Below are positions 2,620-27,300 of a stretch of DNA of 64,000 nt, one piece after another (the first letter of the stretch is position 1; every line of letters begins with the position of its first letter). The notes below the pieces were generated by a model that did not search any database, was not told the DNA's origin, and saw only the letters and a list, made by a program, of their open reading frames with translations. The translations under genes were made by a program, and so were the position numbers. Source of the stretch: Polytrichum commune. Taxonomy: Eukaryota; Streptophyta; Polytrichopsida; Polytrichales; Polytrichaceae. Where the stretch lies: the NCBI GenBank assembly GCA_950295325.1, contig OX485806.1, forward strand, positions 50,897,169-50,961,168, given 5' to 3'.

Positions 2620-4199
2620 TGTGAGGCCTAAACTCCCACCTTTAGCGTCGTAGTCCAGGTGGAAGTTTATTACTCACATTTACTTACTTGAACTCCCTTA
2701 ATCTTTAGTTGTGCTCACACCAACCAATCATGCCACCGATATGAATCACACCCCATCAAGTTTTATGGAATAAGTTGAGGTGTTCAAAAACACCCCTTAT
2801 TATTGTGGGTCCTTTCCCATTCATAATTCACCAAGTCAACACAAAATCCACATCCTGATCCACAATGATAAATCCAACTACCCTAATCTATTCTACTGTT
2901 TGTTTCAACTTGTTTGGACACACTTTGGCACACCAGTCCCACCTCTTCCTAACTGCACTTGAACAACTACCCCCACTAATCCCACTTAGCATCTAATTAG
3001 CAAAATCCATGCCCGTTGGGCTAAAGGCTGCTGGCCTCCTGGTTCACGAAGGTTGCTGGCCTCTACTCAACTGTGGCAGCCACTGCCAAACCCACACCTC
3101 GCTTATCCCCGCACCCTGCAACCAGCATTAGTGTAGAAAATCGGGCAACACCGAGATCTCCCTCCCCAGTTTGCTTGAATGAGCCTTGGGTCCCCGATAG
3201 ATTTAATCCTAACAACCTGCTGTCAATCTCTAGCTCCGATATCGGTAACAGTTGAATTTGGCAGCTGCTAGCTGCCGACTCTCGGCCACCCCTCCCTGGC
3301 TCGCAACTTTACTGTTCGGTTGCATTCCACCCCGTTCTGAACTACCAGGCTTCATGTGACAGCCCATGAGCTCAGAATCTAAACCAATTCAGACAATGCC
3401 GTTTTTTCCCCTTCCTTATTACCCCCTTTACATCCCAAATTCCACCACCAGAGTCGCAATTCAAAATGTGGGCAAGCTTCGAATGGCCTTTCCACCCTCT
3501 TCAGATTTCTCAATTGCACCTCTAATTCATTCCCTTGCCTGGCTACACTCCTGATTATAGCTCCTCCCCTTTGAGGATTGCAGGCTGGTGTCCTCTTCCT
3601 AAGTCGTCCCCTATTTCCAGTTCGTGTGACTCTCCTGCCACCCCCCTGGCCGTGTTGAGCTCCCTCCGTCGGCCTTCCCTCGGAGGTGATGTCGGCTCTC
3701 CTCGCCATCATCCTCCCTCATTCTGCCTGGGCCTCCTTGAAAATCCGCCGCCTAGCCTCTCCCTCATAGCTGCTGTCTCTCCGTCCCCCAGCACCACACC
3801 TCCAGAGCCTCTCGGCAGCCTCAACCGACTTCTGGTCATGTCCCCCGGATTTTACTAGATTACAATTCCCCGCCCCCTAAACGGACACTACTGCCTCCCC
3901 TTATCGGTCAGCAAGAGACGAACTCAATAATGCTTTCACCCCTAATCCTAAAAAATATTTAGCTACTCTCAACCTAAACCCTCAACACTTCACATATCAA
4001 AAACACTAATTTCACAATACAACTCTTCATCATCCTAAAACCCAAATACAAAACCACACCGCTACTACTAACTCAATACAACCCCAAGCCCACAGCCTGC
4101 ACTCTTTTTATGTTTTGAATAACGATGATAAGTTCAAAATCAATTTCTAACAACTTTTTAAGGGTTAACATCACATGTGGGCACCATTTCGGGCTCACA
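2620..4199 (+). mobile_element. Solo LTR-B, 1580 bp, TSD AAAGC
   Basis: Starts TGTGAGGCC and ends GGGCTCACA, a 9-base inverted terminal match in TG...CA form. The target duplication AAAGC lies at 2615-2619 and 4200-4204. Both flanks are interior of relic 1, which fixes the insertion order. The start (CCACC..TTAGCGTC.TAGTCC.GGTG) and the end (CTTTTTATGTTTTG ... GGGCACCATTT) recur in the other four LTR-B copies of this window. Open frames inside are short and not conserved among copies. Confidence 0.8.
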
Positions 4200-5153
4200 A
4201 AAGCGAATCATATTTGTGCCACGGACATAAATGTTAAAAGTTGGTTTTGCAGATCAAGCCAAATCATGTTTGTATCACATACCAAATGTAAGATGATGGC
4301 TTTGTGGCCAAGGCTAATAGCCTTAAGCCAAGGCCATGTTTTTTGTACTTCATAATCCAAATCAATGAGAGAAATGTCTCATGTGTTGTCAAAGAGGCAA
4401 CGCACTCCTTTATGAGCCCAAAACTTACAAGGGGCTTGGGGCTTGCCGATGCATAGACCGGGCAAGGCCATCAAGGTGCGGTTTGCAAAAGGTGAACTGC
4501 ATGTAACCTTTTAATGTGGGACATTAGATTTTTGTGAAGATTCTACACTATGTGAAATAGATGAGGTGCATGTCATTGTGAAGGTCACTTTCTTTGAAAC
4601 TCACATGGTACATGTGAGACACAAGCAGGTACAAAGAGTTGAATTTGAAATTCACCAGAACTCCTATAGTAGGAGGAATCAAGTTAAAATTGGTCTTAAT
4701 GAACCAAATGAACAATGAAAAAATAATGGTTTTGGTTCAATTAAACAACTTCAAGGAACTTATGGGGAGGCTATGACAAATGGGTCTCCTCCAAACCACA
4801 TTCCTGGAATGTTGGAGAGGTACAAAGATGTATTCACCAATGAGTTGCTCAAAAGTTGCTCAAAAAATAACTTTGCTCAATGAGAGATTGAGTTCTTAAG
4901 CATTGTGATGACAAATGGAGGTGGTGAACGAACATGAAGATGGTCAAGGCAATTCAAGAATGTAAGCAGCCCTTGATTTAAAAAAAAAACTTAGGCTAAT
5001 GTTTGTTGGTGAAATAAACTTGTGATGTAAGATAATGGAGGGGTACATGGACTACCCCGAAGCTAGGTGGAATGCAATAGGTTAGCGTTTGTGACCCTTG
5101 CTAGAACTGAAAAATGACCAAGGTTGTTAAGGGGGGCTAGCAAAGGTTGCGAC

Positions 5154-7246
5154 ACCATCCATCCCTCGCCTCTGTATGCACCTCAAAATGCTTGTGAAAA
5201 TCCGGAAACTTGAGCACATGTGGCAAAGAAAACTTGCTATTGAGGCCCCTAAAGGCTTGGTGACAAAGCTCATCCCACCCTTGGGATAGCTATTTCTTAG
5301 ACAAGTCGGACAAAGTCCTAGCAACCTTAGAAAACTCTACAATGAAGCGGTGGTAGTAGTTGGCTAGACCAACCAATGACCCAAGTTTTTTTTGAGCCAA
5401 GGGTCACTTCCATTTTTGGATTTCCTTAACCTTTTTCATATTCATCTACCAATTTTATTTGTCACCTTATAGCTCAGAATTTCAATTTCTCACTGAACAA
5501 AATTGTTTTCCACTCCTTGGCGGTACTTTTTTTATCAACCCATTGGTGAGTTTATCCTTGTACCTCGCCAACACCCCACAAATATAGTTCCGGGGAGGCC
5601 CATCTTTCCTAGCCTCCCCATGAGTTCCTTGTAGTTGCTCCAATAGAACCACGACCACTATTTGTTTATTTTCCACTTGAATCGACTTGGTTCCTCCTAC
5701 CATAGGAGTCTTTGTCAATTTCAAACTAAACTCTTTGCCATCATGGTACACCACAAGCGCACCAATTTGCATCTTACATCTACCATGTGAGTTACAAAAA
5801 ATGTTACCTTCAAAATGACAAGCATCTCATTTATTTCACATAGTGTGAAATTTTCATAAAAATCCAATATTCTACATTAGAAAGTTACGTGCATAGTCAC
5901 CTCCTCTGCCTTATGCGGTTCACCCTTTGCAAAGCGCACGTTGATGGGTTTGCCCGCTCTACGCATCGGCAAGCTTCACCTACTTTGTCAGCTTTGGACT
6001 CATGAAAGAATGGGTTGCTCCTTGTTGTTGACCAAATATGAGACATTCATTACATGGACTTGGGCCTTAAGGTACACAAGAACTATGCTTTGGTAAAAGC
6101 CTAGTAGCTTTAGCCATAAAGCCACCTTCTAATGTTTTGTTTCTGACATAAATGTGATTTGCCTTGCTACCACAAATTCACCTTCTAACATTCTGTCCGT
6201 GGCATACACATGATTTGCCTTGGTACCACAAGGCCACGTTTTAACATCCCGTCTGCAATACAAACATGAGTTGCTTTGGTAGCACAAAGCCACCTTTCAA
6301 CATTCAATCCGCGACACGATCATGATTTGCTTTGGTGACAGAAAACCACCATCCAACATTCCGTCCATGACACAAGCATGATTTGCCTTTGTAGTACAAA
6401 TCCACTTTCCAACATTTCGTCCGTGGTACAAACATTATTTGCCTTGGTATAATGGGCCAAACTATTTGCGCTCATTTCTTTGGGACTTATTTTTACTAAA
6501 GCCATTTTGTAATGAAGCGCCGCCCAACTTCTTTTTGGGACCATCAACTTCAATGCTCTCAAAATCTTGATGATCCCCGCCACATCCTCAATAAGCTTTG
6601 GGAACTTCAACAAGGATTCCACCAACCATTTTTACAACCCCATCTAAAACTATGAGTTTCTTAGCCAATTCATCTGTCTTTGTTGCACCATTCATTTGCG
6701 TGCCTCATTTGCACCAAGTTCATTCCAACATCATCACCTTCCAAGCTTCCGGGTGCATTTGATATTGTAGCCCCCAAATATTTTTTGAGGTTTGTGGGAG
6801 CCCTTTCAAAAGACTCTTCCATTTTCCTCACCGAATCCATCATCATTTCCATCATTGTCATTAGAATCAATGGTTTGGTCAACATCCACTTGTACATGAT
6901 CTTTGTTTTAATTTGAGCATCACAACCTTTTAGAGACCTCGGGCTCACCATCATAATCCGCACATTTGATAGCCATCCCTTTCTCCAAGTGCTAGCTTAA
7001 AGATTGGAACCTTCCTCTGATACGACGTATCAGAACCCTTGCTAACGCCCCTACTAAACTAACTTGGTTATTTTTCAATTCTAGCAAGGGTTAGGAGCGA
7101 TAACCCTTCACATTCTGCCATAGTAATGGTTAGCGCCTCATACCACGGACCTCTTAGTTCATAGGAGGGAGACCAACCCTCTTACACTTGCATTCGGAAC
7201 TCACCACTTAATCGGTACCAATGGTAAGATGTGGATTTCTACCCAT
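5154..7246 (-). mobile_element. Chromovirus family A, relic 2, inverted
   Basis: Reverse complement of the family-A interior from the RNase H segment (5154-5480) back through the protease/RT-proximal part (5482-5772) and the gag-like repeats (6110-6440) to the primer-binding site near 7000-7022. A 219-bp inverted LTR end follows (7028-7246, TATCAGAACCC = decayed TGTCGCAACCC). It abuts relic 1 tail to tail at 5153/5154. It is truncated on the right where copia sequence begins. All frames are broken. Confidence 0.75.
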
Positions 7247-9549
7247 TAAATTGCTCTACGGATTTAAGCAATTCGGAAGAACATGGTATGAATGCATTCA
7301 CATATTCTTTGAAAATAAAGGCTTTATGAGGAGCCATCATTGTATGTTTTACAAACTTGCCACTACATAGTAATTGTAATTTTATATGTAAACGACCTAA
7401 TCATTTTGGGAAGCAATTCAAACATGATCAACGAGTTGATATCTAGCCTCAAGTACAAATTCAAGATGAATAACCTTAGTGAGTTCCATTTCTTCTTCAA
7501 AGTTCATTTTGAAAGGGATAGGACCCCCATCATTACCATCCATTAATGGATCTACATCAAAACCATTTTGGAACGATTTGAAATGGGGGATTGTAAACCC
7601 ATTGCAATCCCGCTCAACACAAAGACCTCATTAGCAATGCTTTCAAAGGAGGAGTATGAGGATCATTCACACGAAATGAAAGACATTCCGTATCAGAACC
7701 CTTGCTAGTTCCCCTAACAAAACTTGGTCATTTTTCAATTCTAGCAAAGGTCATGAACGTTAACCCTTTGCATTCTGCCATACTAATGGTTAGCTCTCCA
7801 TATTGCGGACCTCTTAGTTCATAGGAGGGGGACAAACCCACCTACTCTAGCATTCAATATTCAACGCTTAATTGATAACCAACGGTAAGATGTAGACTTC
7901 TATCCATGGAAGTTTAATCTTTAATTAATCATCGTGTTCCCAAAGCAACACTAAAACAACCCGAACCATACTAAGCAACTAGGCCCCCATGTTGGGCCAA
8001 TGCCTGTGGGGGTTGTGCCGTTCGACCTCGGGTGGATTTGGCTAGCCACATTGACTCACCCATATGAACCTCTAGGACTTTCAACAGGGACTTTACCCCA
8101 CCATCAAGAAACTTTTCTTCTTTCTACCAAGAGTTTGGGCCAAATAGACAATATCCCCTAGCCGTTGGGACTCGAAGCCCCCAATAGCTTTAGATTATCA
8201 TAATATCTATGTATGATTTTGGATGCTCACATGCAACCACTCCATTGTCATCTACGTTTTACTTAGATGCCGATGGACTCCTCACTGGGTCCCATCGGAC
8301 AAATATTGAGGAAGGTATGCCTGGTCAAACCTTGGCAGTCCTGAAAGCCACTCCCAAGCCATTGTTATACTAGGTCGTTGTCCCGGGATAATGACCCATT
8401 CAAATTTCCATATCCTCTAGCTCACACCTTCAATTGAGATGTTCTTGATCATTCTAGAATGTGCACACCATAAGCTATGCATAGCAAATGGCCTTGCTCT
8501 TGTGATTACTAGTCTTTGTGGGTGGGAGGCGTTCCCAACGCCCGAGGCCCTCACCCACACTAGGATTATTTGGGCCCTCTCAAAAACGGCGCCATAAGTC
8601 TTGGGTGTAACTTTGGGATTCCCCTTGTGCCCATGGTATTTCACGCACTCCTCATGGAGAGGTGCGTGACATTCTATATCACAAAGCGATGGGGTCATTG
8701 ATGTACGCAATCGTGGCCACAAGATCGGATGTCGCATTTGCGATAAGCATGGTAAGCCAATTTATGTCGAAACCAAGTTCAATGCGTTGGATGGCGATCA
8801 AACGAATCATAAGGTACTTGAAGGGCACTTTAGGTATAAGGTTGCGCATTGGACGCAAACACATAAACCTTAAAGGTTATTTGGATGTGGATTGGGCTGG
8901 TGGTGTGGATAACCATAGGTCTTTATCTGGATACGTTTTTTCTATTGGAGAGGGGGCCATGTTGTAGAATAGAAAACGATAACAAACAATGGTACAATCT
9001 ACAATGGAGGTGGAATACATGGCCATGAACCAATGCTCAAGGGAGGCCATTTGGCTTAGTCAACTAATGTAGGACGTAGGATGTGTGCAAGAGGAAGCAA
9101 CGACCATTATGTGCAACAACCAAAGTTTTATGGCACTTGCCAAGAACCCCATAGACCATGATAGGTCATAATATATCGACGTGCAATATCATTTCCTAAG
9201 AGAAAAAATTTGAAAACAAAGTTGTAAAGCTAGAATATTGTCCAATTCAATATATGGTAGCGGATATTCTAACAAAGGCTTTAGCAAGACATACGCATGA
9301 TTTTTCTAGTAAAATAATGGGGTTGGAGTAGAATGTCACCACGCAAAATAAGAGTATTGGAAGATAATGTTAGGTTGCATTGGTGATATTGCCCCATATG
9401 GATTGTCAACATTGATCATAACCTACACATATAAATAAAAGCATAAAAGGAGGAACCAATCATTCTTTCCATTGTATGCAATCCTTGTGCATTGTGTTCT
9501 ACAGTCTTACATTGGTCTCTTTGTTTTCTTCTCTCGTTTCCCAATAGCA
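7247..9549 (+). mobile_element. Ty1/copia relic, RT-RNase H end plus probable 3' LTR
   Basis: The left part (7247-7690) translates to the end of a copia reverse transcriptase: LYGFKQ..RTWYE, then VILYVNDLII (the YVDD box with D to N), and DCKPIAIPLN. The right part (8677-9330) is copia RNase H: GSLMYAIVATRSDVAFA, GYLDVDWAG, SLSGYVFS, then MEVEYMAM. Several stops and a frame change break it. A solo LTR-A splits it at 7691-8671. A likely 3' LTR starts TGTTAGG at 9368 after a purine-rich tract and may end at CCCAATAGCA (9549). A TATA-like ATATAAATAAA lies near 9440. Gag and integrase are absent. Confidence 0.75.
7691..8671 (-). mobile_element. Solo LTR-A in copia, TSD TTCCG/TTCTA
   Basis: Full-length inverted LTR-A, TATCAGAACCC (decayed TGTCGCAACCC) to GCGTGACA. 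It interrupts the copia frame exactly: ATT CCG TAT on the left, ATT CTA TAT CAC on the right. The 5-bp duplication TTCCG (7686-7690) now reads TTCTA at 8672-8676. Both differences fall in one CpG and are of the type made by cytosine deamination on the two strands. This is one of the more diverged LTR-A copies here. Confidence 0.8.
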
Positions 9550-10239
9550 AAAGCCCCCAATACTTAGTGGGTTGCTCGATGTACTTTGATTTATCTTATT
9601 TGAAGGCCTAAAATTTATCTCTATGATTTTTTCAGTGTTGTTCATCTTCTTACCACCAACCATCTTTGGTCCTAAATGTTTGGTAAAGTTCTTAGCACCC
9701 ACCACCTCAAGTATCATCATGAAGGTGCCATTTTTTTTCCTTGACAATATTTTCAAATTTTCTATCTCCTTGTATAATATAGGAAAACTTAGTAGTGTGA
9801 GCAGATAGCGGAGAGTGGAGAACAGAGATTGGAGAGCAAAAAATTTTGAGTTTGTTGGATAATTTTAGGACAATGTGTGCCTATTTCCGTGGAATTTATA
9901 GATAGTGTGAGGGCAATTTGTTGGAAAGGTACCCCATTCCCATGGAGATTATAACGCATTCTAGTTCGAGAAACAAGTAGAACCTAAAGGCGTGGAATAA
10001 TGTATTTGTTATCAAATATCTTATAGTCTAGGTTTGAAATGGTTTCATATTAAATTAGGGCTGACGTCAGCAATTGAAATCAAACATCAACAAAACATAT
10101 AGAAAGAGTTGAATGGGGATTTGCAAAATGCACAAAGAAATACAACAAATGAACTTAGAAAATATTTATAAAAAAAACAATACATTTGAGATAGAGTTTC
10201 CAAATGCACGAGGCGTAGTCAACTACTTGCACTACCATG
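9550..10239. other. 3' flank of X1, duplicated at 61612-62039
   Basis: From about 9780 to 10239 this region aligns with 61612-62039 downstream of X2: GTGAGCA..GCGGAGAG near the left end, then CATTCCC.TGGA, GAGAAACAA.TAGAA, AATGTATTTGTTATCAA and TTAAATTAGGG. The duplicated unit therefore includes several hundred bases beyond the X stop codon. No match was seen left of about 9780. The minus-strand frame at 9499-9756 has no recognisable domain. Confidence 0.55.
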
Positions 10240-10750
10240 ACTATCATTATAGTCTATCATTATCCTCGCCCTACTCGGCCTGTATGTCTAGAAAATCCAA
10301 TACTAGGTTGTTGAAAGGTCGGATGCGACTAGGAGGTGGAGACGAAGCTTCCGCTAAAAGATTGGCAAGCTCAGCAGCATACGAAGGGAGCTCAAACATC
10401 TTGGAAGGACTCGAACATTTGCCTCAACGAAGGACTGCGTTCTCCCCTAGCACTCTGAACCCCCAAGCAAGAAGATTAGAAACAAGATGACACATGATGA
10501 TGGGAAAATGACATGAAGGTAAACATGACAAAACATATAAAGTAAACTTACGTACAAAAAAAACCGAATGCGCGTTTGGTCATCTTTTGAAGTGGATAAA
10601 AAATAGAGGTAGACGGTGGGGCAACTGAACGGGGAGTACGCGTAAGTTGGGGATCGCGCATGGGGAGTAAGATTGCATTGAAAATGATGGGGTCATTCTC
10701 AAGGGCCACGATATGCCGCTCAAGTGAGCGACATGCTGTAATCGAACCAC
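10240..10750 (-). pseudogene. X1 last two exons: motif I end, acidic motif, C-terminus
   Basis: Exon 10750-10552 follows acceptor TTTGCTTTAG and completes motif I in phase: the joined reading is QCGVG-GSITACRSLERHIVA, then LENDPIIFNAILLPMRD. This fits the methyltransferase series (G.G.S, conserved R, acidic E.D.). Exon 10454-10240 reads FELPSYAAELANLLAEAS, RPFNNLVLDFLDI, then TAG at 10271-10273 where X2 has CAG. X2 shows the same exons at 62573-62373 and 62268-62040. The conserved intron cuts the motif-I glycine codon at phase 1. Confidence 0.6.
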
Positions 10751-11409
10751 CTAAAGCAAAGAGAGGGAAAATGTTAGTATGGAAACTAGTGAAGAAAAAA
10801 TAAGGGAATATTCAAAGTAAGGATGATGCTGAAAGAGAATTGTACTGTGAGGCCAAACCCACCCCCCTTAAGCGTCCTAGTCCGGGTGATGGTCTTGAGA
10901 ATCACATGTAGTGTATGTAGCATGAAAATTGATCTCTTCACATCATTAAGCATTCGTGTCATTTTGAATTACTTTGTTTATTTAGAAGTAGCCTCTTGGC
11001 TCGTGGTCGCGTTGGCCTTTTCTAGGGTCCAACCGGCGGCCTTGGCAACACAAACTCTCAAGGATATTCTCCTTTGGCCTTTGATTATCCTTTCCTTCAA
11101 CTTGCCCTTGCTAGAGTCCTCCATTTTATCCATTTCTTATAAGCGATTGAATCTCCCAAAAAGGACATAAGTGTTAAAAAAACACTCCCTCAATGGTTGA
11201 TCACAAGTACAATTGCCTTTGAGGCCACACGGAATTCTAGATAAACTAATGCTTTAACTATTTGGCTTGCACTACAAAATCTAACACCTAATGTAATGGT
11301 TTATAGAAGTACTAATGTAAGGTTGTTTAGGACTAGCCTTGACTAGCTTCTATGTTAAGTTGATGTGTAGATAAACTAATGCTTCTCACATCAATCCTCT
11401 TCCGGGCAA

Positions 11410-11847
11410 CTCCGAGGCTTAGCCACCTCGTCACAGGGTCCAGCAGTCGGCTTAGCCACCTCGTCCAAGGTCCAACAGTCGCTTAGCCACCTCGTCCAAG
11501 GTCCAGCAGTCGCTTAGCCACCTCGTCCAAGGTCCAGCAGTCGCTTAGCCACCTCGTCCAAGGTCCAGCAGTCGCTTAGCCACCTCGTCCAAGGTCCAGT
11601 AGTCGGCTTAGCCACCTCGTCACAGGGTCCAGCAGTCGGCTTAGCCACCTCGTCCAAGGTCCAGCAGTCGCTTAGCCACTTCGTCACAGGGTCCAGCAGT
11701 CGGCTTAGCCACTTCGTCACATGGTCCAGAAGTCGGCTTAGCCACCTCGTCCAAGGTCCAGCAGTCGCTTAGCCACATCGTCACAGGGTCCAGCAGTCGC
11801 TTAGCCACCTCGTCCAAGGTCCAACAGTCGGCTTAGCCACCTCGCTA
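11410..11847. repeat. Minisatellite, 14 units of 31-34 bp
   Basis: Fourteen copies of TTAGCCACCTCGTC.. followed by GTCCAGCAGTCG. Two unit types alternate irregularly: one with CCAAGGTCC, the other with ACAGGGTCC and an extra G before CTTAGCC. It lies inside LTR-B. The minus-strand frame through it (11514-11720) is a by-product of the repeat. Confidence 0.9.
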
Positions 11848-12158
11848 AATTTCACCATAACCAATTGAGCAACTAATTGCTCAAAGGCCCACATGCGAGC
11901 CTTTAGCTACACTCTTAAATGTAATTCCTCAAGATGCTTAATCGGACAATTGCTAACTCTTTTATTCGTCGGCTAATAAGCTAATTAATTACCTAACATC
12001 ACTAACTAATCCACACACGTGGACCCAAGCTCCAAGAGCTCATCTCCATTGAGGGAACTTGAGAGAGAGCTTAACTAACTAACTTCACTAAAAACTAATA
12101 ACCCACACACGTGGCTCAAGCTCTTAAGAGCTTGCTCCCTTGAGAGCTCTTGATGGAG

Positions 12159-13095
12159 TGTCGCGCACCTCTCCATGAGGAGTGCCCGCAACACCATGGG
12201 CACAAGGGGGACCCCGGAGTGACACCCGGGACTTGTGGCGCCATTGGTGAGAGGGCCCAAGTACTCTTAGTGTGGGTGAGGGCCCCGGGCGTTGAGAACG
12301 CCTCTCACCCACGAGGACTAAGAGTCATGAGGGTAAGGCCATAAGTTACGAGTAGCTTATGGCGGTGGAATTCTAGAATGCTAAAGAACACCTCAATCGG
12401 AGGTGCTAGCTAGGAGATATGGCCATTTGAGTGGGGCGCTGTCCCGGGACAGCACCCTGGGACAGCAGTGACCTGGGAGTGGTGCCCGGGACTGCCAAGG
12501 TTTGAGGAGCCATAACTTCCTCAATACTTGCCCGAATGGGGCAGGTGAGGAGTCCATCGGCATCTACGCAAAGAGTAGATGACGATAGAGTGGTCGCTTG
12601 AGAGCATCAGACATCATATGTAGAAGTTATGGTGGTCTGAAGCTACTGGGAGGTTCTAGCCCCAGCGGCTAAGGGAAAATGTCCACTTGGCCCCAACCCT
12701 TGTAGAGAGACAAAAGGATACTTGATGGTGGGGTAGGGGCCCCGCCCAAAGTCCTAGAGGCTTATATGGGTGAGGCGGCTTAGCCGACCGACCCCCCCGG
12801 AGCATACTTGGCAATGTGCTCCGGGTAGTTGTAGTGTTGTTTTGGCAACACGATGATCAACTCAAGAGTGGACTTCCATGGATGGAAGTCCACCTTAGCC
12901 ATTGGCTACCTACGAAGGGGAGAGTCCCGAATGCATGTGTAGGAGGGTTTGGTAACCTAGCCATGAGCTTGAAGGTCCGCGGTTTTGGGAGCTAACCATG
13001 CATGTGCGTGGGATGTGCAGGTTAGCGCTCGTGGCACTTGCTAGGTTGGAAAGGCGGTCAAGCTAAGTGAAGGAAAACTAGCAAGGGTTGCAACA
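12159..13095 (+). mobile_element. Solo LTR-A, TSD TGGAG
   Basis: TGTCGCGCACC to GGGTTGCAACA, 937 bp, flanked by perfect TGGAG at 12154-12158 and 13096-13100. Both sides are LTR-B sequence, so this is younger than the LTR-B copy. Its right half resembles the fragment at 48841-49280 more than the complete element, suggesting a subfamily. Confidence 0.85.
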
Positions 13096-13529
13096 TGGAG
13101 AGAGACGAAAATGAGAGAGAAAACACCTTAAGTAGTAAAAAGGGAGAGAGGGAGAGAGAGGTGAGGATAGGGTGAGAGGATTAGCACCTCCAATCACAAT
13201 CCCTTAACCCTCACCTCTAAAGTAGGGACTAATCCCCTTCCACCAAGCTTCTTTCTTCCTAAACTAACAAGGCGGATCCAAAAGTGGGCATTTAACCCGC
13301 GGAGCTCGCCTCGCCTCACCTTACCCCTTACTCACATAATCAAGGCATTTTCCTATTCAAATCAACCTTGAAATAATCACACAACACTACCTAATGCCTA
13401 AAGTTAAATCCACACCACACTTCACTCTTTTTATGTTTTGTGAATAATCATAATACCTCAAAGTCAAACTAAAATTGGTTTCGAGGAGTTAATCACCACA
13501 TGTGGGCACCATTTTGGGCTTACACGTAC

Positions 13530-14213
13530 CTACACCACACTGCCAGTCCATAATAACATCATTCTTGTCGGTGAAAGTAGCGAGGAGAATAGAGAAGAAA
13601 ACATGATGTTTTTCACGAGCACCTCTCCGAGGTATCCCATCAGAGCGCATCGTCTGGCTCTTCTCATCGGTGTAGGCATTCAACCATCCATATTGCTGGA
13701 GGTTGCAACCATACTCTTGCATGGCCTCCTCACACACTCTGAGAACGGAGTTAACACGAACAAGAACCTTGATGTTGAATTTCCGAGTCTGAAAAAATTA
13801 AAACGATTTCATAAGTCTCAAAACAAGTGAAATAAAAGACAATACATAAGCGTACTAAGAGACAAAGAATTGCTTACCACTCCAGAGGAATCCACAGGGG
13901 ATTGGAGGTCCAAATCATTCATACCAAACCAATCTTCAGCGACATAGAAATTGTAAGTGTGTGCCCAATAAAAAATAATCTTGGAAACAAAGGCACTTGT
14001 ACAATGGGCAAGGACAAAGACACCATGATCATAGAGGTTAGATTTCACAAATGCAAAAAGACACTCATATTATGATTCAAGGAGCTTGTTCCAGAATGGA
14101 ACATCGGTGAAGATGTTGGGCACCGGCAAATTCTTGGGAATGTCTGCGAAGAGCAAATCGAGGCCTTTGTGAGTTGTAGTCGAGGTGTTCACACGGGAAC
14201 GACCTGCCCCAAC
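13530..14213 (-). pseudogene. X1 exons with methyltransferase motif IV and start of motif I
   Basis: Exon 14213-13878 begins after TTTAATTGCAG: VGAGRSRVN, GLDLLFADIPKN, a stop TAA at 14070-14072, then SNLYDHGVFVLAHC and DWFGMNDLDLQSP, with donor GTAAGC. Exon 13788-13530 is fully open: TRKFNIKVLVRV ... EKHHVFFSILLATFTDKND and VIMDWQCGVG, donor GTACG. The hydrophobic strand DLLFADIP sits where beta-class amino-methyltransferases carry (D/N/S)PP(Y/F/W). EKHHVFFSILL...ND.VIMDWQCGVG matches their helix-plus-motif-I pattern (EKP..LL...GD.V.D.F.G.G). The canonical PP of motif IV is absent, so catalytic ability is doubtful even before decay. Confidence 0.6.
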
Positions 14214-14310
14214 CTGCAATTAAAACTTCATGAGAAAACAAGAGCAAGGAAAAAAAGAAGCAAACCAAAAGGAAAGGAGCCTGAAAAATGATGAAGGGAA
14301 AGATACAAAC

Positions 14311-17161
14311 CTTGGCAATGAACTCTTGCATACGGGTATGTGCTGGGAGGGGACCTCCTGCAAGCTCAAAATCCAGCATGAGTTGTACCATGTCCACATT
14401 TTCGATGAGGGCAAGCGTGTTAGGCAACTCCGAAGAGGTGGCACTCGTATCTAAGAAGGCCGCCTTCCTCTTGTGAGGCAAGGAGAGAAGAGAAATACCA
14501 CTGTGAGAAGGAATAACAATAGTTTGTGGACAAAAGGCTGAGGGAATACCAGAGGGGACAGCTGATGGAGCAACGGAGGGAGTGCTAGATGGACTCCGTA
14601 GGATGGTGGGTGGCTGAACATGGGTCTTTCAAGCAGACCGAGTGACAAGGTGGGAAGAAGTTGAATGGCGGTATTCTTTGCTCTGCCATTTCCCTTTGGT
14701 GCCTTGGGCGGAGGAAGCTCAACGATGTCAGGCTCCTCAAAGGGGATAATGTTCTCCTCGGGAGCACTACTTACAAGGCTGGCAAAAAAAAAACTTCTCT
14801 TTCCCAAGCACAAATCCTCCATAACAATCCAAGTACAATCCCCCAGTGTCGCAACCCTTGCTAGGTCCCTTAACAATCTTGCCAATTTTCGTTTCTAGCA
14901 AAGGTTACGAGCGCTAACCATTCGCATTCCGTCATGCTAATGGATAGCTCCTCTTACCCCGGACCAATAGTTCATAGGAGGGAACCAACCCTCCTACTTT
15001 GCTTTCGGGACTCACCCCTTAATCGGTAACCCATTTCCCCAATGTGGACTTCCATCCATGGAAGTCCAATCCTATGTGGATCATCGCGTTGCCGGAGCAA
15101 CACTACAACAACCCGAAGCATACTAGGCAACTATGGCCTCACAATAGGCCAAAGCCCATGGAGGCCTTGCCGTTCGGCCTCGGGTGGGTGAGGCCACACC
15201 ACCTCACCCATATAAGCCTCTAGGACTCTACACGGAGCCCCTACCCCACCGCCAACCAACCTCTTGTCTCTCTACCAAGAGTTGGGGCCAAGTGGACATT
15301 TTCCCTTAGCTGCTGGGCCTAGAACCCCCCCAGCAGCTTCAGACCATCATAACTTCCTTGTATGATGTCTGATCATAACAACCAACCACTCCATCCTCAT
15401 CTATGCTTCACGTAGATGCCGATGGACTCCTTGCTTGCCCCATTCAAGGAAGTCTTGAGGAAGTTATGCCTGTTTGAACCTTGGCAGTCCCGGGAATCAC
15501 TCCCAGGCACTGCTGTACCAGGGCGCTGTCCCGGGACAGCACCCCACTCAAATGGCCATAACTCCTAGCTCACACCTCCGATTGAGGTGATCTTGAGCAT
15601 TCTAGAATCACCACGCCATGAGCTACGCATAGCTCATGGCCTCACCCTTATGCCTCCTAGTCTTCGTGGGTGGGAGGCGTTCCCAACGCCCCGGCCCTCA
15701 CCCACACTAGGATCACTTGGGCCCTCTCACCAACGGCGCCACAAGTCCCGGGTGTCACTCCGGGGTCCCCCTTGTGCCCATGGTGTTTCGGCCACTCCTC
15801 ATGGAGAGGTGCGGGACACCCAGCCTGTAGGTGAGACTCAAGAAACTTGGTTGTTTGCGTGGTCATGTACACGCAGAGGCTAGAAAACACGTTCACCCAG
15901 TCCGAGATATAACTACAATACAAAAAAAATAAGATAACCATGGAAAATAGCAGGAATGGAGTGCAAAAATGCAAGAAATGAAGTGCACAAGAGCAAGAAG
16001 TGAAGAGTAAAAATGGAGGATAATACCATTACCGATAGGCGATGCGCTTGATAGCCAGAGCACCCTCCTCGAATTCCAAGAAGTTATCACCTTTGGCAAT
16101 GGGAATATCAGGCTTATCGCCGAAGTAAGGCTTGAAGGCTCTGTCCCAATGAAGAATCCTCCAATGATTAACATACTTACGAGGGTGCAAGATAATCTCC
16201 GATGCGTCCCAATCGATATCGACGATGAGGTTGTCCTAAAATGTTTTAATCTGGACCGAGACTTCTTTCTCTAACTGAAATGAGGGAGAGAGAGTGAAAT
16301 TAAATATGAAACAAGAGGAATAAAATCAAATTAAGAAAGCCAAGGAATAGATATACCTTATCCCAAAATGAAGCCTTGTGAAGCCAGTCATCCAAGGCAT
16401 TCTCCCTCATACGTTTGTCGATGGGAAATTTATTCTCCAACCTCTCACGAATTGAGGCCTTCCACCAATGAATCCATTTGGATTTGAATGAAGCTTCGAC
16501 CGGACATGTGACAATTTTTTGCAACTTTTCAATTGTCATGTCTGTCGAGGTGAATTCATTAAAGTGCCGGTCAATCTGCATACGTCCAAAAAAATGAAAT
16601 GAGTTCAGGAGGGTACATAAATGAAATGATTATTCATATAAAAAGAAACATGGAAGTGAAGAAGGGATACCTCGTAAAAGAAGTCCTCCCCATTGTCAGG
16701 ATGTGCAACCAAGATATATTTTTCAAATATGCGTGCTCGAATGGTCTTGATTGTCTATTTATGGGCCTTGCTCATGATATTCCAAATCTCAGTAGCAGTC
16801 CTCTCAGCAACCAGAGTGGTTTGACGGTAATGCCTTACTGCAAGGTCAACTTGAGCCGAAATGTCTCTCTGCAAAAAATAACCTTGTGAGGAAATACAAT
16901 CGGCATGTAAATGCAAAATAGAATGCAAGTAGGGAAATGGAGAAGACGAAATGCAAAATCATAACTTATAAAGAAATTTGTCGAAGACATCCGCGGTGGA
17001 AATTGTACCAAGTAGGGCGACTCTCTGTAATCTTCTTGCATGTTTTGTAGTCAGTAGGAGAGATGAGATTCTTGAACATCGATAACTCCAATATCCCAAA
17101 CGTATGAATTCGAAGGAGTTTGGCATGAATGTTCGCTTTCACGTAATCATGCTCTTTAGAC
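14311..17161 (-). pseudogene. X1 middle exons, no recognised domain
   Basis: Exons 17161-16966 (SKEHDYVKANIHAKLLRI), 16868-16671 (DISAQVDLAVRHY, IFEKYILVAHPDNGEDFF), 16574-16357 (IDRHFNEFTSTDM, WIHWWKASIRERL), 16274-16033 (ILHPRKYVNHWRILHWDR, AFKPYFGDKPDI), 15912 onward (YISDWVNVFSSLCVYM) and a P/S-rich exon with PHKRKAAFLDTSATSSE ending at 14311. Each has a pyrimidine-rich acceptor and a GT donor. The 15912 exon is cut by a solo LTR-A and has a frame change in a poly-T run. I do not recognise the domains. They link the ParB-like and methyltransferase-like parts. Confidence 0.5.
14847..15818 (-). mobile_element. Very young solo LTR-A in an X1 exon, TSD CCCAG
   Basis: 972 bp, TGTCGCAACCC to GTGCGGGACA, with perfect CCCAG at 14842-14846 and 15819-15823. 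By eye it differs from the LTRs of the complete element at only a few positions, such as one lost G in the CCCGGGG run and GCGGGACA for GCGCGACA. Removing it rejoins an X1 exon (LESHLQAG to GLYLDCYGG). Confidence 0.85.
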
Positions 17162-17228
17162 CTGAGAGAAAAAATATGAGAACCGGCCTATAAAAAGAAC
17201 GGAGGAAATAAAAAAAGTATATGCTTAC

Positions 17229-17654
17229 CAATTAATGTCGCTCATTGCGTTGAGGAAGACACCGGTACATCCCTTGGGGTCGACTACAATACAATCCACC
17301 GAGACATGTCTACTCTTCTCGTTAGCGTGGTTGTTGTTGATATGCCTCCACCATGCTGTGAGTCGATGATTTCCTTCCCATACGAAGAACATCTTCCCAA
17401 AGAGATGTGCAAGATCCGGATCCTCCTTTAGTTTGACATCGAACTCCGCGGAGGCCTCTTACCAGAGAGGGCTCCATGAGGCCATAATGGCAAGGGAAAC
17501 CGAGAGGTCTATAGGAATGTCGTTGAAAACCGAAACGTACATTATCCGATCTCCCTCTTGGTATCCCATAACAAACTCACATTCCAAACACAGCAATAAC
17601 ATTGTCCTCTGCAGACTGATGTTGCTCCTCCGCAACCTCAAAAGATTGAGAACC
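17229..17654 (-). pseudogene. X1 exon with ParB-like GNHR motif
   Basis: Acceptor TGTTCTTAG at 17655 and donor GTAAGC at 17228. After an apparent one-base frame change the exon reads EFVMGYQEGDRIMYVSVFND, then DLSVSLAIMASWSPLW, a TAA, KEDPDLAHL, FFVWEGNHRLTAWW, VSVDCIVVD and VFLNAMSDINW. In ParB/sulfiredoxin-fold domains a short strand is followed some 40-60 residues later by a G-x-H-R motif (here EGNHRLTAW), a V-x-V strand and an (A/N)-x-x-x-x-x-N segment. The spacing here fits that. This is a motif-level inference; structure-based comparison would decide it. Confidence 0.5.
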
Positions 17655-17930
17655 CTAAGAACATGAAACCATTTTAGAATTTCCAAACGAACAATAAAAA
17701 AAACACATACAAGTTACCAATATCTTACTAACTATCAAAAAAATAACTCCCAATTTAGTTTGAACCCAAACTAATATAATTATCATATAGGAGACAAACG
17801 AGAACCGACCACATTCAAAGCCGCCATCATGATGAGATACAAGTGTCAAACAGGTCCTTGCGATTGTAAATAAAAGAAACTCCTGAAAAGAAAGCAAGGC
17901 CAAGCCAAAGTCATGTAGGCTCTCTAAGAA

Positions 17931-19026
17931 GAGGCCTCGGATCCGAGGCCTCCTCCATTACCTCAAACATATGCACTTAGCAAAACAAGATAAGGCCGAG
18001 AGTAAAGTCAAGTAGCAAACTCATGTACACCTAACATGTAGATTTCCAAAGCAAGAACTTTCATACAAAGAGGCCTCGGATCCGAGGCCTCCTTCCCTAA
18101 CTCTTACATATGCACTAAACAAAAGAAGACAAGGCCGAACACAAAGTCAAGTAGCCAACCATTCCATGTAAATTTCCAAACCAAGAACATACAATAAAAA
18201 GAGGCCTCGGATCCGAGGCCTCCCATCCTAGCTCCTACATATGCACTTAGCAAAACAAAACAAACCCAAGAGCAAAATAATGTGCATATCACATCTTGAT
18301 TTTTCAAGCACAACCCTACACACAAAAGAGGCCTCTTTTTCTAGCTCCTACATATGCACTTAGCAAAACAAAAAATGGCCGAGAGCAAACTACTTTACAC
18401 ATCACATCTTGATTTTTCAAGCACAAACCTACACCCAAAAGAGGCCTCGGATCCGAGGCCCCTTCCCCTAGCTCCTACATATGCACTTAACAAAACAAGA
18501 AATGGCCGAATACAAAGTCAAGTAGCCAACTCAAGTATAGATAATATTTTGATTTACACACCAAGAACCTACATACCTTGGCCGAGAGTAAAGTCAAATG
18601 GACATTCCATGTAGATTTCCAAACCAAGAACCCACACCCAAAAGAGGCCTCGGATCCGAGGCCTCTTCCCCTTGCTCTTATATATGCACTTAGCAAAACA
18701 AAAAATGGCCGAGAGGAAACTAATGTGCACATAACATTTTGATTTTTCAAGCACAAACATACACTTCAAAAAAACCTCGGATCCGAGGCCTCTTCCCCTA
18801 GCTCTTATATATGCACTTAGCAAAACAAGAAATGGCCGAGAGCAAACTAATAAACACATAACATTTTGATTTTTCAAGCACAAACATACACTTAAAAAAA
18901 ACCTCGGATCCGAGGCGTCTTCTCAAAGTTCCTACATATGCACTTAGCAAAACAAGACAAAGCCAAGAGCAAACTAATGTGCACATAACATTTTTCAAGC
19001 ACAAACCTACATCCAAAAGAGGCCTC
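17931..19026. repeat. Tandem array with 22-nt palindrome in X1 intron 2
   Basis: Units of about 113-140 bp carry a perfect palindrome with core GGCCTCGGATCCGAGGCC, extended by GA and TC at the ends. Full copies: 17931-17952, 18070-18091, 18201-18222 and 18644-18665. One-arm-mutated copies: 18441, 18771 and 18898. Collapsed GAGGCCTC remnants: 18328-18335 and 19019-19026. Between them recur CTAGCTCCTACATATGCACT, TAGCAAAACAAGAAATGGCC and TGATTTTTCAAGCACAAACC. Diverged palindromes continue at 19758 and 19885. The array lies between donor 19975 and acceptor 17883 of X1. Confidence 0.9.
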
Positions 19027-19110
19027 TTCCCCTAGCTCTTACTTATGCACTTAACAAAACAAGAAATGGTCGAAAGCAATGTCAAGTACCAACACATGTA
19101 CACATAACAT

Positions 19111-19690
19111 GACAAGGCCGAGAGAAAGTCAAGAGTACATTCCATGTAGTTTGAGAAAACAAAAACCTCTCCTCACTCAAAACCCTACGTCTCACATACT
19201 TGACATATCAAGACAAGGCCGAGAGCAACTTAAGTGGAAATTCCATGTAGTTTGAGAAATCAAAAACCCTCTCCTCAACTCAAAACCCTACCTCTCACAT
19301 GTTCCTAAACCCAAAACAAGACAAGGCTGAGAGCAAGTCAAGTGGACATTCCATATAAATTGAAAAAGCAAGAACCTCTCCTCACTCAAAACCCTACCTC
19401 TCACATACTAACTTGACATATCAAGACAAGGCCGAGAGCAACCCAAGTGAACATTCCATGTAGTTTGAGAAATCAAAAACCCTCTCCTCAACTCAAAACC
19501 CTACCTATCACATGTTCCTAAACCCAAAACAAGACAAGGCCAAGAGCAACTCAAGTGGACATTCCATGTAGTTTGAGAAAGCAAGAACCTCACGTCACTC
19601 AAAACCCTACCTCTCACATACTCACTAAACCCAAATCAAGACAAGGCCGAGAGCAAGTCAAGTTGACATTCCATGTATTTTGAGAAATCA
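19111..19690. repeat. Tandem repeat, about 107-bp unit, 5-6 copies
   Basis: Units start with GACAAGGCCGAGAGCAA at 19111, 19212, 19320, 19425, 19533 and 19640. Each contains GGACATTCCATGTAGTTTGA, then AACC..TCTCCTCA and AAAACCCTACCTCTCACAT. It lacks the palindrome but shares GGCCGAGAGCAA with the preceding array, so both may stem from one ancestral unit. It lies in the same X1 intron. Confidence 0.85.
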
Positions 19691-19975
19691 AGTTAATACA
19701 AAGCAAAATCCTCGGCCAACAGGTAGTTTTACAAAGCAAAATTGTCGGCCAACATTTGGCCTTGGATCCGAGGCCTTTTCTTTTACCTCACCTGATTCAC
19801 TTACCCTAAACATACCAAGGCCGATAGCCATAGTCATGCAGACTAGTCATTTACATTTACAAAAACAATAACCCTCGGCCAAATGGAGGCCTCGAATCCG
19901 AGGCCTCCTTCCCCCAACCTCTCATTATGCACACTTCTAAACCAACATAGCATGGCCGAAAGCCCGACACCTTAC

Positions 19976-20928
19976 CAAAATTTGGAGTATGCCATCCACT
20001 GAAGCCCCAATATCCGTGCCACTATCTTCCGAGCTTCCGTCCTCTGTCGACGTTATTGGAGTGCTCTTTGAGTCACCGAGGTTTACCTGCGCCTTTTCTC
20101 TCCCGCGGCCATGCCCTTGCCTCAATGTTTGTTGTGTTCCGCCCGCCTTGCTTCACAGAAATCTTGAAGCATGGGTCACAATATCCACATTTAGGGTTTC
20201 AGTCCCTGGGCCTCCTCCTTCAGCTCTTTCGCGGCCTCCGAGAAAATTTGATTTCAGATCTTCCTCTACCGCTTTCCTCTTAGACGCCTTCATTTTTTCA
20301 TTTTTTTGAATCGTTGGTTGTCCTGACAGCAGTCCTAGCTCTTCTAACGCCTTCTCAGTTTGTTGTGCTACCTCCACGTTGTCTTCTTCTTCGTAGCTAT
20401 TTCCATTCTCTCCACTCCCCCATCCTCCTATATTTAAGAGATAACAATGTTTATAACAATGATGACAAACCATAATATTTAAGAGATAGTTATTTCACAG
20501 TTGAATTTGTTCTACCATTTTAATTATGTGCTCAGACAACTGAATATATGGAGAACCCGAAGAATATGTACAACGCTTGTAGAGTTCGTCTCTTCGCGTG
20601 AGTCCTCTTGGATGCTGTCATTTCCCAATTCTTCCACTTCTGCCATTGTCTGTGTTTTACTTCCGTCCGCCTCTTCTACAATCGGTGATAAAAGAAAAGG
20701 CCAAATCTCACAGTCTAGCCTCCACGAAGGTTTAGGGTTTAGGTACTTAATGCTTTGGCTCAAATCCTCGGGCGTCCCACGGCCCTCAATTGGCGCATTC
20801 ATTGACTGTATCTTTTGTATCCTCACTGTCTTCCTCTTTTTATCTGTGTAATGTGTAGACGATCGCCTCCTCTTTTTCTTCTTTGATGGTTCCGTTGTCG
20901 GAGGTTGTGTATTGCCTATTTCCTTCAT
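19976..20928 (-). pseudogene. X1 N-terminal exons: charged, nuclear-type
   Basis: The frame from ATG at 20928 is rich in Lys/Arg (SKKKKRRRSS, DKKRKTVR) and then acidic. The next exon (20427-19976) follows acceptor TTAAATATAG. It reads YEEEDNVEVAQQ, KASKRKAVEEDLK and GRERAEGGG, then passes a TGA at 20153 that an arginine CGA could have become. It continues in the same frame (GHGRGREKAQ, TSTEDGSSEDSG) to GILQIL and donor GTAAGG at 19975. The frame joins in phase to the exon at 17882 (EFLLFTIARTC). Basic patches suggest nuclear targeting. The exact end of the first exon is not clear to me. Confidence 0.5.
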
Positions 20929-24208: not shown

Positions 24209-24302
24209 ACAGACGTTCCCCGTTTTCTTTTTTTTGGCATCCTTCATCTATTCCGTATATATCTCTATGGTTTTCTCGTATTTTGTGCCTTCTTTGTCAG
24301 AG

Positions 24303-27300
24303 ATGGCGGAATTCCGTGCCAATGGCTTCGGAGTGCCCATCCTCTTTCCTATAGATGCAGACGGATTTGCACATTTCTCTTCCCTCCACCTTAGTATCAG
24401 GTTCACCTCACAGGATGGTTCAATCTGGGTTGAACGCGAGATTTATGATCCCCTTACCTCTTTGTTGTCCTTGACCATGCGCGAGAATCCCATTCTTGCC
24501 GACAACAGATCATCTGTGAGGAAACTTGTCGCAGGTAAATACAGAGTCTACGGACTCCCTGAATCTCGGCCACACGTTTCCACCGAGATCCGTACCCCTA
24601 TTTTTTCATCCGTTTCCACTTTCAACACCCCTCCCGCCGTTCGTCTCAAGATTGAACCTGGTATTCATACTGTCATACATCTTTCTAATTCATCTCATGG
24701 TGATGAGCCCGTTCATTCCACTCCTATGGTCGAGCCATCTTTGTCCTCCCTCGGTCCCCCCTCCGTGACCCCCCTCTTGTACGCCTTGATCCCATGTGTC
24801 CTCTTCCCCCATCCCCTCCCAAATCCACCCTTTCCATTCTTCAATGTCTTCGTACTCTTGCTTCCATGCCCGGTAGGAAAAACATCCTCAAGAAGCTAGA
24901 TTATGACACCTTGCAAATTGAAGACGTGAATTTCCTCCCCCCTCGCTTTGATGGTGATCTTATGTTTGTCCTACCCCCAGTTGGTGTCTTTTCCTCTCAT
25001 ACGAAGGCCCAATTCATGGACGGCATGGACAAACGCTATGACGGCCATGTTTCAACCAAGACCTAGACCACCAATATCACCAATGACATGGGCTTTGTTT
25101 TTTGCTCCTCCACTTGCGTTGGCCACCTCCAGTGCCAAAATCCTCAGTGCGATTACCTACAACGTGCTCATCGGACCTCCCCGGTCAATGATACTGATTT
25201 CAACGGACTCACCAAAGAGCCCTTCCATGTTGGTGGTCCCTTGCCTTTGGGATCCACTCTAATGTGCTAGATCTGTAAGCAGCCTTCCAAATGCATTGCA
25301 CCATGTCACGCCAAAATCTTCTACGTCCACGGCAATGACACCACTTAGCGTGCCTGTATTCATCTGGGCAACCATCGTCATCCTGTCAAGGTTAGCAACA
25401 ATAGCCGCAAGCGCATCGACGCCCTCATCGAGGAGCACGTCGAGCGAACGCCCCAAGCCACTTATACCAAAATCGTCCTTAAAGCCAGCAACGACGTTGT
25501 GGGTGAGTTCCTCCTCCGCAATGATAGTGATCCTCATCAACTTCTTTTTTTGGAAAAACTTGAGCCCGTTTTTTATCGTTGCAAAGAGTTGAATTCCCCC
25601 CATGTCGCAACCCTTGATAGTCCCCTTAAAAATCTTGCCAATGTCCATTTCTAGCAAATGTTACGAGTGCTAACCCTTCGCATACCGCCACGCTAATGGT
25701 TAGCTCCTCCTACCCCGGACCTTATAGTTCATAGAAGGGGAACCAACCCTCTTACTTTGCTTTCGGGACTCATCCCCTTAATTGGTAACCAATCCTTAGA
25801 TGTGGACTTCCATCCATGGAAGTCCCATCTTATGTTGATCATTGCATTGCTGGAGCAACACTACAACAACCTGAAGCAACTATGGCCTCACAATGGGCCA
25901 AAGCCCATGGAGGCTGTGTCGTTCCGCCTCGGGTGGGTGAGGCCACACCACCTCACCCATATAAGCCTCTCGGACTCTACGTGGGGCCCCTACTCCACCG
26001 TCAAGAGACCTCTTGTCTCTCTACCAAGAGTTGGGGCCAAGTAAACATTTTCCCTTAGCTGTTGGGCCTCGAAGCCCCTAGCAGCTTCAGACCATCATAA
26101 CTTCCTTGTATGATGCCTGATGCTAACAAGCAACCACTCTATCTTCATCTAAACTTCACGTAAATGCCGATTAACTCCTCACTTGCCCCATTCCAGCAAG
26201 AATTGACGAAGTTATGCCTGGTTGAACCTTGGCAGTCCCGGGAATCATCCCAGGCACTGCTGTACCAGGGCGCTGTCCCGGGACAGCGCCCCACTCAAAT
26301 GGCCATAACTCCTTGCTCACACCTCCGATTGAGGTGTTCTTGAGCATTCTAGAATCACCCCGCCATGAGCTAGGCATAGCTCATGGCCTTACCCTCGTGC
26401 CTCTTAGTCTCTGTGGGAGGGAGGCGTTCTCAATGCCCGGGGCCCTCGCCCACATTAGGATCAATTGGGCCCTCTCACCAATGGCACCACAAGTCCCGAG
26501 TGTCACTCCGGGGTCCCCCTTGTGCCCATGGTGTTTTGGGCTCTCCTCATGGAGAGGTGCGCGACACCCCACCTCCGAAACAAGGTAACCACCTTCAAAT
26601 ACTTATGTAGGTTAGGATTTATGGATGGCATTGCCAAGCTTGATGGGGATCTCGAGCATGCTTGGATCATGTCCGACCATGTCCGACCATGTCAGACGCG
26701 TCGCCAAGTGGACCACCATGGCCTGCCATGTATACGACGGAACCTACCAGTGCATTATGACCATCGTTTGCTGTGACTTTCAATTCGAGGACAAGGATGC
26801 TCAAGTGTTTTTCTGGCACAACCTCAACCACGTCATGGCTAGGCATGGAATTCCCAAGCCTCACTTCAAAGGCTTCATGGCGGACAGTGCGCAAGCCAAT
26901 TGGAATGCCGCCAGGATTGTCTACGGGTCCGGAGATCCAAAGGTTCCCATCGATGGGCGCGAGAGAACCTGCTACTTCCATTGGACCCAGTCTTTGGAGA
27001 AAACACACCAAACTTTATATCAAGCACGACTTGCAAGACCAACACAAACGTCTCTGCCTCCAGTATCGTGACGCATCCTCTATGATGGAGGTAGAGACGA
27101 GGTACCTTGCCATCAAGGCCTGGTGGGCTTCGTCTAACTGCACCTCCGAGGAGGGGCTGAAACACCTTCAACTTTGGCTGGCCTTCTGGCACTTTCGATA
27201 TCGACATGGGGTGGCTTCATGGAATTGATGCATTTGTTTTGTTTTAATTTTTTTTTTTATCATTTTTTTTTCAAGCTTTGCTTATTCCTTACAGTGCCAT

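Follow-up and report, generated by a model that had tools for sequence, protein, structure and literature searches.

The window analyzed here, a 64,000-nucleotide stretch of Polytrichum commune DNA (contig OX485806.1, positions 50,897,169 to 50,961,168), contains a dead copy of a gene whose product combines a GNHR motif with a methyltransferase-like C-terminus. We find that this gene belongs to a DNA transposon of about 16.2 kb that is present in many copies, some of them very recent; that the element has two genes is almost certain. We favor, with a probability of roughly 0.6, the reading that the window holds a decayed copy of this two-gene transposon and that the accessory protein acts on the silencing or the transposition of its own element. 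Our preferred form of it, an element-directed epigenetic factor with a palindrome array as its candidate target, is plausible but more tentative. A preliminary description of the locus had proposed a eukaryotic version of the ParB-methylase gene, which overlooks the main fact, namely that an amplified DNA transposon carries the gene as its second one.

To find other copies, the 407.8-Mb genome (64 contigs) was searched with the exon encoding the GNHR motif. Among 1269 first-look candidates, 150 were scored and all 150 are matches, so the exon has at least 150 genomic matches; with a second C-terminal copy in the window itself (64000-62043), the earlier remark that the gene is repeated in this genome is correct. 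Of the best 30 matches, 28 carry no stops, and eight on five contigs share one score (263.8 bits). Six of these eight, labeled A to F and thus chosen for equal protein score, were compared as 30-kb stretches, with three extra stretches added for the transposase side. Blocks over 2.5 kb are 97.2-99.6% identical, and one further block of 94.7% identity falls outside the element. The methylase-side end, ACTTGAGTTTCCC, is found in all six stretches and is followed by differing flanks; in copy E it lies at 16652, beyond the expected position, and an insertion is therefore likely. The transposase-side end was reached in copies C and D, both of which start GGGACGACACTTGTATGTGAGCG. This side is cut by a long terminal repeat (LTR) in copy A, homology is lost earlier in B and E, and the stretch of copy F does not extend to it. 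Both copies read to both ends are flanked by 9-bp target duplications (AGAAACTCG and CTCGGGTGG in C and D), and copy C measures 16,159 bp. Both ends begin GGGA and form imperfect inverted repeats of about 50 bp; from 12 bases inward they match at 95% over 42 columns, a match that is partly due to a short GCGGAGA-type repeat. The duplications fit the 8-11 bp of Mutator elements, and terminal inverted repeats are also present. Recent amplification of the element is evident from these copies. The reading first proposed, that of an ordinary plant gene combining ParB and methylase domains, would agree with the conserved exons and the conserved GNHR block, but it can hardly be right given the target duplications, the inverted ends and the near-identical copies on several chromosomes.

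The partner gene is a presumed transposase. In copy C, leftward open reading frames (ORFs) of 766 and 555 residues (3866-98) are divergent from the GNHR/methylase gene, which runs rightward from 4033 to about 14103. By eye, the leftward ORFs hold DGTY..., FMADSAQANW, ERTCFFHW and a SWIM-like C-C-C-H pattern, and D...FMADSAQANW...ERTCFFHW is the pattern seen in the presumed transposase. The transposase core has at least 150 matches in the genome (1718 candidates), 15 of them at the top score. When the 150 scored matches on each side were compared (the best of 1269 GNHR and 1718 core candidates), 75 of the 150 GNHR matches have a divergent core within 20 kb and one has a core in another arrangement only. 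Random placement gives a mean of 0.73 divergent pairs and a maximum of 4 (1000 trials, with guessed lengths for contigs C5, C6, C7 and C61). The window shows the same divergent arrangement as copy C, with a decayed transposase-like gene in pieces at 24234-27462 (plus strand), broken by a solo LTR at 25603-26566 and taken as belonging to the same element; a further transposase-like piece is found at 61618-61405 (minus strand). The element is Mutator-like by its ends and is not filed as a Mutator-like element (MULE), because the Pfam search gave no MULE transposase domain.

Codon comparisons indicate that the gene has been under selection at the protein level in the past. Of 30 GNHR-exon loci, 28 are open and 27 were used, with orientation checked, which gave 346 usable pairs out of 351. 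The median ratio of nonsynonymous to synonymous divergence (dN/dS) is 0.117, with a range of 0.042-2.211. For the 274 pairs with a synonymous proportion (pS) above 0.2 the median is 0.104 and the maximum 0.247, showing that it is pairs of almost identical copies that yield the high ratios. When 14 of these copies are compared with copy C, the median nonsynonymous proportion (pN) is 0.18 and pS is 0.84, which is saturated. All 15 pairs of the six young copies have a pN of 0 (pS 0.01-0.03), which is no independent evidence because these copies were chosen for equal protein score; the methylase exon E10 is open in five of the six and has a stop in one. For the two window copies, 223 aligned codon pairs (stops excluded) give dN = 0.39, dS = 1.72 and a ratio of 0.23, suggesting that both descend from constrained genes. 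These results bear on the alternative that a host gene family was captured or carried along by transposons and has no role for the element. Capture is common in Mutator-like elements according to a MULE survey (PMC6446971). However, the same divergent arrangement recurs in half of the scored matches, the GNHR exon is open in nearly all of the best 30, and selection among 27 copies is not expected of a gene merely carried along, so this alternative is very unlikely.

The METHYLTRANSFERASE end, which is the C-terminal part of the gene, was tested by family, profile and motif comparison. A 949-residue read-through query gave no match, probably due to length-limited candidates and the use of words from the first 500 residues only, and exon-sized queries were used for relatives. 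Among public predicted proteins, the methyltransferase-part query found 77 relatives (best E = 8e-98) and the GNHR-part query 76 (best E = 6e-68), all named at most "hypothetical protein"; P0004 and P0021 (methylase part) and P0128 (GNHR part) are probably on one contig of 53,305 bases. The window copy alone matches PF01555 at 0.11, PHROG methyltransferase models at 2.2e-4 and 0.0067, and DpnA in PDB at 0.015; consensus and profile queries improve these scores (PHROG methyltransferase 9.3e-5, DpnA 0.0024). The CcrM model matches 7 of 11 members (best 7e-4), PF01555 matches 4 of 11 below its cut-off (best 0.032), two consensus peptides have no Pfam match, and the tRNA methyltransferase model Trm5b also matches 6 of 11 (best 0.013). 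A tblastn search found matches in 85 phage records (best E = 8e-4), and 23 of the 25 listed matches are on annotated methylase or methyltransferase genes, the other two being on a hypothetical protein and in an unannotated record. When its profile is compared with that of 77 phage ParB-methylase fusions, the domain aligns nearly end to end with a score of 39.6 and a probability of 70%, whereas 120 shuffles reach at most 26.2 and the reversed profile 12.0. DLLFADIPKN aligns with DLLLTDPPYN, and motif I and the acidic residue that follows are in register with the phage methyltransferases. The motif order along the chain is IV-X-I, as in the beta class. The methyltransferase-like end noted before is thus borne out in sequence and motif order, while the profile evidence is divided: PF01555 stays below its cut-off, and the PHROG, CcrM and DpnA matches and a profile score above the shuffles speak for an amino-methyltransferase.

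The motifs themselves are only in part those of the beta class. Among the 57 of 77 relatives that cover motif IV, 30 have DIPE and 15 DVPE (D[IV]PE in 45 of 57), and the canonical [DNS]PP[YFW] occurs in none of the 57, the second proline and the aromatic residue being missing. In contrast, motif I reads DWQCGVG in 13 of 24 covering relatives, a count that includes decayed members, and the acidic position that follows is kept as ALE in all 19 relatives covering it. The beta-class assignment made earlier therefore stands for motif order and motif I and not for motif IV. Judged by descent and motif order, the domain is of the beta class, with a predicted S-adenosylmethionine (SAM) site kept and an altered catalytic loop. 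Because motif IV lacks the second proline and the aromatic residue, catalysis may be absent; the retention of motif I and the following acid suggests that SAM binding still matters.

Two alternatives turn on this loop. In the first, the accessory protein is a non-epigenetic helper of transposition or integration, and the methyltransferase fold is a non-catalytic scaffold that binds SAM or DNA. Maize MURB, for example, helps insertion. The prevalence of D[IV]PE fits such a scaffold, and an antisense second ORF is present in some Mutator elements (PMC6446971); however, the conservation of motif I and ALE suggests that SAM binding matters, and the helper is rather unlikely. In the second, the protein is a working DNA amino-methyltransferase that, despite its altered loop, marks the element with N4-methylcytosine (4mC) or N6-methyladenine (6mA). 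The best matches are indeed DNA amino-methyltransferases (phage DNA methylases, CcrM and DpnA), and bacterially derived 4mC writers are described for Marchantia and bdelloid rotifers (PMC12344493, PMC8885841). On the other hand, the rotifer enzyme loses its activity when the Ser and Tyr of its SPPY motif are replaced (PMC8885841), the canonical aromatic residue is missing from all 57 relatives here, and the Trm5b model also matches 6 of 11 members, so that a working writer appears unlikely.

For the GNHR domain, 58 of the 76 relatives were aligned. EGNHR is present in 47 of the 58, and F120, W141 and H145 are invariant; among the open genomic copies GNHR is kept in 26 of 28, in agreement with the G-x-[HR]-R motif of ParB. 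PF02195 matches none of the 58 members, no ParB model is among the 11 NCBIfam models listed for them, and one PHROG ParB match stands at 0.35. DUF6551, reported as a ParB-fold fusion partner in PMC12704722, matches 5 of 58 (best 0.012); in two members the match spans residues 104-136 and 113-145 and by alignment should include GNHR. Three versions of the hhalign comparison with ParB targets (77 phage fusions, 11 further phage ParB domains and 2 PDB segments) scored 13.6, 13.5 and 12.7 bits, equaled by 10, 17 and 11 of 50 shuffles, whereas as positive controls three held-out ParB sequences scored 72.9-148.6 and a 32-residue fragment 22.7. With single sequences, the best member reached 0.3 bits, which 7.6% of shuffles also attained, and the consensus produced no reported hit. 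The GNHR pattern gave 19 matches in viral contigs and 82 in genome contigs, with no relatives among either. The AlphaFold model of the domain (predicted local distance difference test, pLDDT, 61.7; predicted template-modeling score 0.58) has a strand-GNHR-helix-strand order, and its first viral structure match is a Spo0J-like protein, a weak one (E = 0.8, template-modeling score 0.14). ParB membership is thus unproven, and we put it at about even odds: the GNHR block is conserved, as the ParB proposal expected, whereas PF02195 is absent and the profile scores lie within the shuffles. A more distant GNHR homolog (41% identity) is found beside young copy E, on the opposite strand at 27702-27232 of its stretch, and is a divergent member of the family.

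Ahead of the GNHR exon, the intron consists of tandem repeats that carry the perfect palindrome GAGGCCTCGGATCCGAGGCCTC. Counts of the 14-bp palindrome core are 27, 33, 27, 32, 28 and 47 for the six 30-kb stretches; in the copy whose exons were mapped, every one of the 27 cores falls within 5275-9716, between E2 (end 5104) and E3 (start 10125). In the window, 7 exact palindromes (9 with at most two mismatches) all fall in 17935-19890, matching this intron, and 200 shuffles of the window yield none. We guess that the array is a candidate binding site.

Under our favored reading, the accessory protein would have about a thousand residues, with a Lys/Arg-rich start, the GNHR domain, a middle part, a Pro/Ser linker and the C-terminal methyltransferase-like domain, and would act on the DNA of its own element. 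The N-terminal part would direct the protein to its target, which may be the palindrome array in the intron of its own gene, and the SAM-binding domain, catalytic or not, would help the element to escape silencing or assist its transposition, perhaps in an anti-silencing role like that of VANC of VANDAL elements. A more specific version, in which a ParB-type DNA clamp loads on the intron palindromes and spreads while the methyltransferase-like end marks or shields the element against host silencing, is quite unlikely. Several observations count against the favored reading. Both ends were read in two copies only, and 74 of the 150 scored GNHR matches have no transposase match within 20 kb among the matches listed. 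Pfam gives no transposase family for the 766- and 555-residue ORFs and no MULE family at E ≤ 1. Motif IV is non-canonical throughout, as described above. The modest GNHR model matches no fold reliably and has no PDB match, and the AlphaFold model of the methyltransferase-like domain, in which an intron is read through and the last exon is absent, has a mean pLDDT of 49.7 and no Foldseek match at E ≤ 0.001.

The exon map of the window copy agrees with the gene limits given previously (minus strand, start 20928, end near 10250). The peptides quoted in the preliminary description are all found on this strand at the expected exons, and the splice sites, described as clean, show AG/GT borders at most exons. 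Exon E1 (20590-20928; 4033-4485 in a young copy) begins with the Lys/Arg-rich MKEIGNTQPPTTEPSKKKKRRRSST and has an inferred 3' border, and E2 (19960-20430; young copy 4586-5104) has approximate borders. The intron array at 17935-18915, with 7 exact CCTCGGATCCGAGG palindromes, is followed by repeat arrays that continue to 19691. The GNHR exon E3 (17228-17654) encodes EGNHRLTAW...VSVDCIVVD...LNAMSDIN at 17458-17228. Then come E4 (16965-17160), E5 (16671-16868), E6 (16357-16575), E7 (16032-16274), E8 (15825-15911, up to an LTR insertion) and E9 (14311-14846), which holds GGLYLDC... and a Pro/Ser-rich linker and is frameshifted. E10 (13878-14213) runs from DLLFADIPKN at the motif IV position (DLLFADIP at 14213-14073) to DLDLQSP. 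E11 (13528-13788) encodes EKHHVFFSILL...VIMDWQCGVG, comprising the motif X-like REKHHVFFSIL and motif I (IMDWQCGVG), and E12 (10557-10748), encoding GSITACRSLERHIVALENDP, supplies the remainder of motif I, the acid after it (IVALEND) and the C-terminal tail. The last exon, E13 (10250-10454), encodes the same peptide as in the second window copy. That copy is a decayed methylase-like half on the minus strand (62043-64000), truncated by the window edge. Introns at the E10-E11 and E11-E12 places also occur in relatives; the latter, inside motif I, is kept in P0008 and P0051 and is absent in P0004, P0005 and P0007, in which E11 and E12 are fused. In P0142, a rearranged member, the GNHR exon continues straight into the KMAKRNFDLLCA tail of E12. 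The enlarged E11-E12 intron of the window contains a 31-bp minisatellite (11417-11844) and a solo LTR on the plus strand (12159-13095) with TGGAG in both flanks. At the methylase side, a decayed terminal repeat, AGGAAAACTTAGTAGTGTGAGCAGATAGCGGAGAG (9781-9830, first base approximate), resembles GGGAAACTCAAGTATGTGAGTGTAGAGCGGAGAG of a young copy as judged by eye, and 9812-10084 is homologous to the young-copy end.

The window copy of the gene is dead. In-frame stops are found in E3 (TAA), E5 (TAG), E7 (TAG), E10 (TAA) and E13 (TAG), one in each, and frameshifts near 17580 (E3), 17000 (E4) and 10395 (E13); compared with relatives, about 60 residues are missing near 17580, before ECEFVMGY in the GNHR exon. 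Stop-codon reassignment, considered because the stops first noted are TAA and TAG, was rejected: the second window copy has Q at the TAG of E13, and relatives are open without recoding. A 972-bp solo LTR (14847-15818, minus strand, TG...CA, 5-bp duplication CTGGG) lies inside an exon; without it, the E8/E9 exon reads ESHLQAGGLYLDCYGGFVLGKEK, near ESHLQAGGWYLDCSGGFVPEEEK of P0021. This LTR belongs to a family of about 970 bp (TGTCCCGCACC...GCGACA) with seven near-full-length copies in the window, at 14847-15818, 12159-13095 (78.8% identity), 25603-26566, 31591-32563, 37672-38644, 995-1955 and 7697-8671. Two of them are 99.7% identical to the LTR within the exon, and the family accounts for the CCCGGGACAG repeats in the window. 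By eye, ORFs at 29001-29486, 35896-36507, 8611-8964 and 45172-47392 resemble remains of Ty3/gypsy integrase, copia reverse transcriptase and CACTA transposase. An Rfam scan of the window gave no match at the gathering threshold. Beyond 41 Mb of contig C4, 46 of the 150 scored GNHR matches and 39 of the 150 scored transposase matches crowd together, many with stops; this region, the window included, is a graveyard of the element.

Two-gene DNA transposons with anti-silencing proteins are already known. In the literature, with most subscription papers outside the search, we found no description of a transposon in which the second gene has a DNA amino-methyltransferase domain of bacterial type at its end. 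Because the element looks to have been active recently, with open exons in many of its copies, and has kept both the gene and the palindrome array, an effect on DNA methylation is directly testable, and the element would be a route for DNA amino-methyltransferases to enter and spread in plant genomes. Fungal KDZ transposons that carry TET/JBP genes likewise join a DNA transposon to a gene of DNA-modification type, but TET/JBP are dioxygenases and not SAM-dependent methyltransferases. The phage ParB-N6_N4_Mtase fusions (for example L004, Streptococcus phage Javan117) share a C-terminal methyltransferase with the same motif order; unlike the gene here, L004 has 388 residues, no introns and a canonical DPPY, and the N-terminal domains show no significant similarity. 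The bdelloid N4CMT and the Marchantia 4mC writer, DN4MT1, are also amino-methyltransferase-like proteins in eukaryotic nuclear genomes. Those writers, however, are described as host enzymes, and the rotifer enzyme has a catalytic SPPY (PMC8885841).

Closer comparisons are found among the MULEs. MuDR carries mudrA and mudrB, VANDAL elements carry VANA, VANB and VANC, and the SET domain of some oomycete MULEs is a protein methyltransferase of another fold than the domain described here. With this difference, the latter (MULE-Phytophthora_1; PMC6446971) resemble our element in bearing a methyltransferase domain; the word "methyltransferase" does not occur in the main text of that survey. The element shares with VANDAL and other MULEs with a second gene the 9-bp duplications, the inverted ends, the SWIM-like C-C-C-H pattern (by eye here) and the opposite orientation of the second gene. 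It differs from them in a transposase that Pfam does not recognize and in a methyltransferase-like second gene, whereas the domains named for VANC are DUF1985 and DUF287. VANC is an anti-silencing protein: it lifts the silencing of the element that encodes it, and the motifs it targets are tandemly repeated in that element's introns and elsewhere in its non-coding sequence (PMC5735166). By this analogy, VANDAL and its VANC would be the nearest in working to the system presumed here, with its own gene product and its own intron array.

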